A stretch of DNA of 59,421 nt, taken from the NCBI GenBank assembly GCA_028376765.1, contig JAONBD010000009.1, positions 1 through 59,421 of the forward strand, given 5' to 3'. A program made the translations under genes and the position numbers. The notes below the pieces were generated by a model. That model saw only the letters and a program-made list of their open reading frames with translations. It had not been told where the DNA came from and made no database searches. This stretch comes from Candidatus Kapaibacterium sp. Lineage in GTDB: Bacteria; Bacteroidota; Ignavibacteria; Kapaibacteriales; UBA2268. Positions 25,719-34,288 of the stretch are shown piece after piece. Numbering within the stretch: the stretch's first letter is position 1; the number at the start of each line of letters is the position of its first letter.

Positions 25719-25793
25719 TCGGAGTAGCAGGATTCGAACCTGCGACCCCCTGCTCCCAAAGCAGGTGCGCTAACCGGGCTGCGCTATACTCCG
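25719..25793 (-). tRNA. tRNA-Pro(UGG)
   Basis: A 75-base cloverleaf on the minus strand: acceptor CGGAGTA/TACTCCG, D arm GCGC-loop-GCGC, anticodon arm CCTGC-TTTGGGA-GCAGG giving anticodon TGG, and T arm GCAGG-TTCGAAT-CCTGC, with discriminator A. The 3' CCA is not encoded (the following bases are CTC), so it must be added by the CCA enzyme. No integrase or att-like duplication was seen next to it. Confidence 0.97.
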
Positions 25794-31747: not shown

Positions 31748-33937
31748 TCAAATATCTTCAACTTTTAAATTGAAACTTACTTTTGTTCCATTTCTTTTAT
31801 TAGAATTTATTTCAAATGTGGAGCCTATTCTACTAACAAAATCTTTACAAATTGTAAGACCTATTCCCATCCCAGATTCATTGAATGTGCCTAATCGACT
31901 TATTATTTTTTGATTGTTATTTAGATTATTCATTGTTTCCTTTGGTATTCCCTTGCCATTATCAGAAATAGTATATGTCAGTTGATTGTTTACTACTTTG
32001 GTATATATTTTTATTTTACCATTTTTCGGTGTATATTTTATTGAGTTAGAAACAAGATTTCTTATAATTATCTCTAACATGAATTTATCTGTACGAACTA
32101 TAACTTCGTCAATATTTGCGGTAATAGCTATGGATTTTTGGATAGAATTAAGCTTGTGGTGCTTTATAACATTAAGGGTGAAGTCCACTATGTCAATGTA
32201 TTCGGGATTATAGCTTAATTTATCACTTGTTTGTTTTACCCAATTATTTTGATCTGAAATAAGCTTAGTGCTATAATCTGATAATTCCTCTATTCTTTTT
32301 ATTATCGACTCTTTTTCTTTTTGAGCTAGCTTGTCGTTATAACTCAATAATGTTTTTGCAGAAAGTGCGATTGAACTTAATGGTGTATTTAAATCATGAA
32401 TTAAAATTTTTAGCATATTTTCTTGAACATCACTAAAGTCTGTTAATGCTTTTTGGTTGCTCAAAATTTCATTGTTTAATTGAATCAGTTCTTTATTTTC
32501 GGCGTCAAGGTTAGTGTTTTCAAAAATCACTCTTTTTTCTTTTTTCGACTTTGTAATATAAAGATTGATAAAATATCCTAGAGTGGCTAGGCTAAGTAAA
32601 AGAATGATTATTAGAGTTGCAAATCTTAATAGATTTTTATCTCGCTGTATTATTTTTTCTGCTCTTAATAGCTTTCCTTCAAATGAATCTCTAATTTCTG
32701 CAAATTTTGATTTCTTATTCCAGTTGTTAAGTTTAGAATGAACTTTTAAAAACTTTTTCATGTAGGCAATCGATGAATCAAGATTACCAGTTTTTTCATA
32801 AAATAAATAATTTAATTCTAGTGATTTTAATATGTGAATTTTAGAATTTAAAGTATTGGTATATTCTGAAAATAACTTGATATATTTATAAGCAGAATCT
32901 AATTGGTTGGTTTTCAAGAAAAGATTAGAGTAGGTAGCATAAGTCATAGGTTTGTAAGATTCTTGGAATTGATTTAGGGCTGAATCCAAGTATTTATTAC
33001 ACAAATTTAATGAATCTGTTTCAAGATATATTTCTGCAATTTTGTTATAGATATTAGCCTTGCTTATTTCTGATAAACTGGGATGAAAGTATTCTGAATA
33101 GCTCAATGCTTCGAAAAAAAGAGTTTTAGCTTTCATATTTCTTTTCCTAGCAAATGATAGAATAGCTTTATAATATTTGTATTCTGCTTCTTGAAGTTTA
33201 CTACCAATGTGCTTTTCTGACTTAAAGAGTTCAGCTTCCGCAAATTCATATTCTTTCATTTCAAAAAAAATTAAAAATACATTAGAATAGTATTCAAAGT
33301 ATTCAAAGTAATCATCTTTAAGGCGATACTCAAATAGACCCTGCGAATAATCCATCGACTTTTTAAAATCACCAATTAATCGAAATTCAACACTCATCAT
33401 TAAGTAATGTTCATGGGTTAATTCCAAGTTCAAAGTATTTGTAAGACTATCAACCTGATAAAGTGCATTTTCGATGTTCCCTGTTAGCTGGGCACTGACT
33501 AAATAGTTGTTAAAGGTTAAATTACGATGCCTAATATTGTCACTCTTAATATTTAAGTAGTTGTCAAATATTTGCTTATAAAAATAATAGGATTTATTTG
33601 CTTGATTAGAAATGCCATAAATGTTTCCTAAGTATTCAAAAATATGATGTTTAATGATAGGGTTTTTCAATAGAACCCACTCATTATAATTTATTGAATC
33701 TAGTAATTTTGAAGCGATTATATCATGGGAATTTTTGTGATATAAGTAAGCGTTTAAAAATAATTCTAATTCATTTTTACCATCAAAACTAACTCTTTCA
33801 AGCTCATTTTTAAATGTCAAAACCTCCTCTTTAGATGCTGGAAAAAAAGTTTCTAACTTTTTTTCTATTGAAGTGGGAACCTCTCCAAATCCAAAGGATA
33901 CAATGAATAGGAGCAATATGTAATGAAGATATTTCAA
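31748..33937 (-). CDS. TPR-containing sensor histidine kinase
   Basis: A 729-residue protein. A signal peptide or first membrane segment (YLHYILLLFIVSFGFG) precedes a periplasmic region of about 400 residues with helical TPR-like repeats (SKANIYNKIAEIYLETDSL, YSNLFLKTNQLDSAYKYIKL). A transmembrane segment follows (FATLIIILLLSLATLGYFI, about 439-457), then a short coiled coil, HisKA with the phospho-acceptor His in LIHDLNTPLSSIAL (about 514) and an HATPase domain with NLVSNSIKYTP, ISDNGKGIPKE and GMGIGLTICKDFV. This is the usual tetratricopeptide-kinase architecture of Bacteroidota; the signal is unknown. There is no adjacent response regulator. Confidence 0.93.
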   Translation of the reverse strand: MKYLHYILLLFIVSFGFGEVPTSIEKKLETFFPASKEEVLTFKNELERVSFDGKNELELFLNAYLYHKNSHDIIASKLLDSINYNEWVLLKNPIIKHHIFEYLGNIYGISNQANKSYYFYKQIFDNYLNIKSDNIRHRNLTFNNYLVSAQLTGNIENALYQVDSLTNTLNLELTHEHYLMMSVEFRLIGDFKKSMDYSQGLFEYRLKDDYFEYFEYYSNVFLIFFEMKEYEFAEAELFKSEKHIGSKLQEAEYKYYKAILSFARKRNMKAKTLFFEALSYSEYFHPSLSEISKANIYNKIAEIYLETDSLNLCNKYLDSALNQFQESYKPMTYATYSNLFLKTNQLDSAYKYIKLFSEYTNTLNSKIHILKSLELNYLFYEKTGNLDSSIAYMKKFLKVHSKLNNWNKKSKFAEIRDSFEGKLLRAEKIIQRDKNLLRFATLIIILLLSLATLGYFINLYITKSKKEKRVIFENTNLDAENKELIQLNNEILSNQKALTDFSDVQENMLKILIHDLNTPLSSIALSAKTLLSYNDKLAQKEKESIIKRIEELSDYSTKLISDQNNWVKQTSDKLSYNPEYIDIVDFTLNVIKHHKLNSIQKSIAITANIDEVIVRTDKFMLEIIIRNLVSNSIKYTPKNGKIKIYTKVVNNQLTYTISDNGKGIPKETMNNLNNNQKIISRLGTFNESGMGIGLTICKDFVSRIGSTFEINSNKRNGTKVSFNLKVEDI

Positions 33938-33996
33938 AGATATTTTCGGGATCAGTTGCTATTATTTTTAATCTACAATATAAGGAGAAATTCTTT

Positions 33997-34248
33997 ATGA
34001 CTGAAATGCTAGTAGTCGCAATGATATGGTTGGGTTTAATGACACCCGAAACATCATATACCGAAGCTCAAGCTGAGATGATCTATCAAAATAATGTTTG
34101 TAATGTTAACGAGGTAGTTGACTCGCCAAGCCTTTATAGTAATGCTTTCAGCAGCTAAACTAGTAATGGTTACAACACATACACTATTCAAATGATAGAT
34201 ACATGGGACTTAACCTATCAGAAATTAGATACTGTACCTTGTAATTAG
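33997..34248 (+). pseudogene. Small gene with an in-frame TAA (53 residues, or 83 codons if read through)
   Basis: AAGGAG at 33982-33987 sits 9 bases before ATG 33997. The frame runs 53 residues with a hydrophobic start (MLVVAMIWLGLM) and one Cys (NNVCNVNEV), then meets TAA at 34156. The same frame stays open for another 29 codons (GYNTYTIQMIDTWDLTYQKL, then DTVPCN) to TAG at 34246. A strong terminator follows 8 bases later. The motif, the continued frame and the terminator together suggest a real small gene; it could be a nonsense-mutated pseudogene, a 53-residue product, or a recoded one. No family is recognised. It lies divergent from the kinase gene and convergent with queC. Confidence 0.5.
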
Positions 34249-34256
34249 GGAATTGT

Positions 34257-34288
34257 GGGGTGATGGAAAAGTCACCCCTGTATTTTTA
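34257..34288 (+). terminator. Rho-independent terminator after the small gene
   Basis: GGGGTGA (34257-34263) pairs perfectly with TCACCCC (34272-34278) around an eight-base loop and is followed by TGTATTTTTAG. It lies 8 bases after the TAG at 34246-34248, which argues that the small ORF is transcribed. Confidence 0.8.

Follow-up and report, generated by a model that had tools for sequence, protein, structure and literature searches.

A small gene with an in-frame TAA and its divergent TPR partner in a genome of Kapabacteria-like Bacteroidota

The small gene considered here, at positions 33997-34248 of the window (the whole stretch of DNA that was analysed, 59,421 nucleotides in length), is one half of a conserved two-gene module, the other half being a divergently oriented gene for a TPR protein. 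In the reading that we favor, with a probability of roughly 0.6, the C-terminal tail of the small protein is a ligand or regulator of the TPR partner, and the copy in the window has lost this tail by mutation or through an assembly error. There is probably nothing unusual about the stop codon; it is the conserved pair exposed by it that is of interest. The two-gene family appears to be undescribed: searches of the literature, incompletely covered, found no account of such a pair in Kapabacteria.

The small gene and its family

The gene lies on the plus strand in a 418-base gap that runs from the start of a sensor histidine kinase gene (33937) to the end of queC (34356). A ribosome-binding site, AAGGAG (33982-33987, plus strand), can be read directly 9 bases ahead of the ATG at 33997, and is followed by 53 sense codons closed by a TAA at 34156-34158 (33997-34158 in all). 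The same frame then stays open for 29 codons up to a TAG at 34246-34248 (34159-34248, plus strand). A scan placed an intrinsic-terminator-like hairpin on the same strand at 34257-34278, with the stem GGGGTGA...TCACCCC and a T-rich tail, 8 nt past the TAG and 98 nt past the TAA. An earlier sequence-only reading of this DNA had described the gap and every one of these elements, and its description proved accurate throughout. The gene was found as a single copy in the source genome, which is 76% complete. In the whole window, Rfam matched a single feature, a minus-strand tRNA gene (25719-25793).

That reading had also allowed for a chance open reading frame, and the profile scores speak against it. 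The 53-codon half scored 38.6 bits against a family profile made from 67 relatives with the window excluded, while the best unrelated ORF of the window reached 12.4 bits and 20 shuffled windows yielded at most 12.1 bits. By these scores the small gene is a real gene, with a 53-codon part that exceeds chance. When the 83-residue translation, with an X at the stop, was compared with relatives, it gave weak matches to other small and mostly uninterrupted ORFs. The relatives were gathered by searching a five-sequence alignment over 123 genomes of the order (Kapabacteria-like Bacteroidota); they were present in 39 of these genomes, often in tandem, and dispersed copies numbered up to 13 in one genome. 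In a phylum sample of 395 genomes, members turned up in this order alone, apart from one genome that belongs to another order of the same class.

Members of the family are 61-108 residues long (65 of the 67 have no more than 100) and acidic, with a median net charge of -8 and a hydrophobic N-terminus. They start with M-E-[LI]-[LI]-x-[AS]-I-L-x-[YW]-L and continue with a P/G turn and then a YT motif; the strongest family-wide conservation falls in the first ~50 residues. The copy in the window departs from the uninterrupted frame of 61-108 codons by its TAA after codon 53, and on its profile match is a truncated member of this unnamed family. No credible family was found for the small protein in Pfam or NCBIfam, and the earlier statement that it belonged to no known family stands for these libraries as searched; what had escaped that reading was the two-gene pairing with the divergent kinase. 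The PHROG family phrog_26294, considered as an identity and set aside, matched weakly three other members over the PG-x-YT segment and did not match the window copy. An AlphaFold2 model of one relative (pLDDT 83, 10 sequences) predicts a compact fold of short helices, in which the tail is less certain, and a structure search with this model returned no PDB match. The proposed disulfide between the Cys before the stop and that after it is not supported by the family, in which 30 of the 67 members have any Cys and 7 have at least two.

In the relatives, the small gene is frequently located at the end of a contig (seven loci), and its copy number in these metagenome genomes is therefore probably higher than counted. 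In one genus, three arrays end with a diverged third gene (M-F-L-F-I-A-I-L-W-Y-L-Q-V-L...), which is without the EEW-DPPP motif and keeps PILD or PIFD as its last residues.

The divergent TPR partner

The partner in the window is a sensor histidine kinase of 729 aa (31748-33937, minus strand), apparently intact and divergent from the small gene at a distance of 59 bp. It consists, in order, of an N-terminal signal-like helix, TPR-like helix pairs at about residues 93-401, a transmembrane segment, HisKA and HATPase. In Pfam, HisKA and HATPase_c were above the cut-off and TPR_12 was weak; in the AlphaFold2 model, the helices of 93-401 are paired and are followed by a long helix holding the transmembrane segment, and then by the kinase core. 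The window thus has the divergent TPR neighbor of the family, with the TPR assigned by the model and weakly by Pfam.

Clustering of the neighbors brought out two recurrent genes beside the small gene. In other taxonomic families of the order, the partner is a soluble TPR protein of ~500 aa (about 470-580 aa), while in the window's own it is a TPR-transmembrane histidine kinase of 741-813 aa (729 aa for the window copy). The small gene and its TPR partner are divergent in 50 of 52 tabulated loci. In a reciprocal search from the ~500-aa partner, the small gene adjoined in 18 of the 30 best-per-genome loci, and it adjoins all four of the outside kinases closest to that of the window. Five loci in one other taxonomic family of the order carry a related subfamily of the ~500-aa TPR protein and have no recognizable small gene alongside. 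By profile, the ~500-aa partner is a TPR protein (consensus TPR of the PDB, E 3e-30), some of its members match Pfam TPR models, and its consensus has a conserved N-terminal segment; the family aligns weakly to the TPR region of the kinase (hhalign 69%). PADLOC gave no link of the ~500-aa partner to a defence system.

The window kinase sits on a very long branch in the tree. Holding all paired kinases as one clade was not rejected (p-AU 0.574) and gave the better tree. Neither gene of the pair was found, at the thresholds used, in two genomes of the same genus; in both of them ffh and queC are on separate contigs, and no empty site can therefore be demonstrated in the genus. A mirror-tree comparison of 40 pairs was significant but is confounded by the species phylogeny, and among the paralogues of a single genome the correlation was not significant.

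The C-terminal tail and the in-frame TAA

Comparison of the copies within each of five genomes that have several revealed a pattern of constraint along the small protein: identity is 98% in the last 15 residues, 92% in the first 20 and 63% in the middle. Thirty of the identical tail codons carry synonymous differences, so recent copying does not explain the identity of the tails. The tails differ, on the other hand, between genomes. In one genus, the closest cross-genome pairs share 32-34 of 45 residues in the middle and only 11 of 13 in the tail, and copies within a genome share just 15-17 of 45 in the middle and 13 of 13 in the tail. This pattern would be expected if every copy presented one genome-specific tail to one receptor.

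It is this part of the protein that the TAA would cut off. All 67 relatives read through the TAA region; none is interrupted by a mid-gene stop, and the shortest has 61 aa. The TAA is probably ordinary gene damage (a nonsense mutation) or a sequence or assembly error, and the uniform lack of a mid-gene stop among the relatives speaks against recoding. A recent nonsense mutation, as the sequence-only reading had proposed, is the best among the options that it listed, but an assembly error fits equally well; its bicistronic option received no support. In seven relatives of the window's own taxonomic family, a hairpin lies 17-51 nt past the stop, a spacing matched in the window only if the TAG is the original stop, which favors a lost C-terminus. 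Without the TAA, the frame would have 82 sense codons, within the size range of that family.

The post-stop segment adds 2.9 bits to the score of the 53-codon half (38.6 to 41.5). Shuffled segments equalled this gain in 72 and 39 of 3000 trials (1.3-2.4%) with the family profile, and in 400 and 165 of 3000 (5.5-13%) with the profile of the window's own family; the similarity is weak (p 0.01-0.13) because the C-terminus varies in the family. Taken together, terminator position, length and profile gain lend modest support to the post-stop frame being probably the old C-terminus with its tail.

It could be argued that the gene is instead a genuine, functional short variant of 53 residues followed by a frame open by chance. 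The probability of 29 open codons is 0.07-0.08, which alone is not beyond chance, the post-stop match is weak, and family-wide conservation peaks in the very part that is retained. We consider this unlikely, however, given that the shortest relative in the set has 61 aa, that the terminator lies 98 nt beyond the TAA as against 17-51 nt in relatives, and that within genomes no part is as constrained as the tail. Far less probable still is programmed read-through or recoding of the TAA to give a product of 82-83 residues, an option raised in the sequence-only reading: the frame is indeed open to the TAG and encodes a plausible family C-terminus, but the mid-gene stop recurs in 0 of 67 relatives, the rest of the window consists of intact genes under the standard code, and an Rfam scan detected no RNA element at the small-gene site.

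Possible function and relation to known signalling systems

In the mechanism that we propose, the small acidic protein, whose N-terminus is hydrophobic, would serve as the ligand or regulator of the TPR protein encoded back-to-back with it, which in the window is a TPR sensor histidine kinase. The C-terminal tail would be read by the TPR domain, and this reading would set the output of the kinase. Export of the small protein to the periplasm, the expected site of the kinase TPR domain, is putative, because the family has no basic N-region and its model is compact and helical. In the window copy, the TAA after codon 53 would remove about the last 29 residues, the tail included; the 53-residue product is thus unlikely to act as a ligand, and in this strain the kinase is probably without its cognate partner.

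A different view of the function, which is independent of the stop codon question, makes the small protein the output of its partner, either an effector or a structural protein, with the partner regulating its gene across the shared promoter region. The divergent layout would suit a regulator paired with its target, the occurrence of both tandem and dispersed copies would suit an effector, the predicted fold of the small protein is compact, and the conserved N-terminal segment of the ~500-aa partner may bind DNA. We regard this as possible, though we would put it below even odds: tails that are the same within a genome but vary from one genome to another suggest that a single fixed partner recognizes them, and TPR domains commonly bind peptides.

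Returning to the tail as a ligand or regulator, a family expanded to as many as 13 copies per genome and paired with TPR regulators makes a candidate ligand-receptor system in Bacteroidota. One could go further and imagine an undescribed, expanded form of signalling in the order, in which species-specific C-terminal tails are coded ligands for divergent TPR regulators or kinases, with an RRNPP-like logic of independent origin; this extension is more doubtful than either account of function above. Intact pairs exist in sequenced relatives, so the ligand-receptor idea can be tested there directly.

The closest known parallel, with a broadly similar mode of action, is offered by the RRNPP pairs, for which we compared Rap-Phr, Rgg-SHP, NprR-NprX, PlcR-PapR and PrgX. 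These are defined by a propeptide of 10-100 aa whose gene lies immediately next to that of the receptor and which has basic residues at its N-terminus, a hydrophobic region and export by Sec or PptAB, and by a receptor 250-500 aa long whose TPRs bind peptides (PMC10075063). The present pair resembles them in having a small gene directly beside the gene of a TPR protein (with the sizes given above, 65 of 67 relatives are within their limit) and in the constraint on a C-terminal segment. RRNPP systems, however, belong to Bacillota and the present pair to Bacteroidota; K or R occurs in the first 20 residues of only 3 of 67 relatives, and positions 2-4 hold D or E in 53 of 67. The partners are TPR proteins by profile, but their length is borderline or over (about 470-580 aa; kinases 729-813 aa), and the small protein is predicted to fold; no sequence relation of the two systems is shown. 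With the basic or Sec-type N-terminus absent and the receptor length borderline or exceeded, the pair would be RRNPP-like in logic at most and not a member.

A second parallel is found in two-component systems that sense peptides, among them ComX-ComP and CSP-ComD. There, as in the window's own taxonomic family, a small gene adjoins the gene of a membrane histidine kinase. The present sensor differs in being a TPR solenoid, the present genes are divergent, and the window has no adjoining gene for a response regulator or a processing enzyme.
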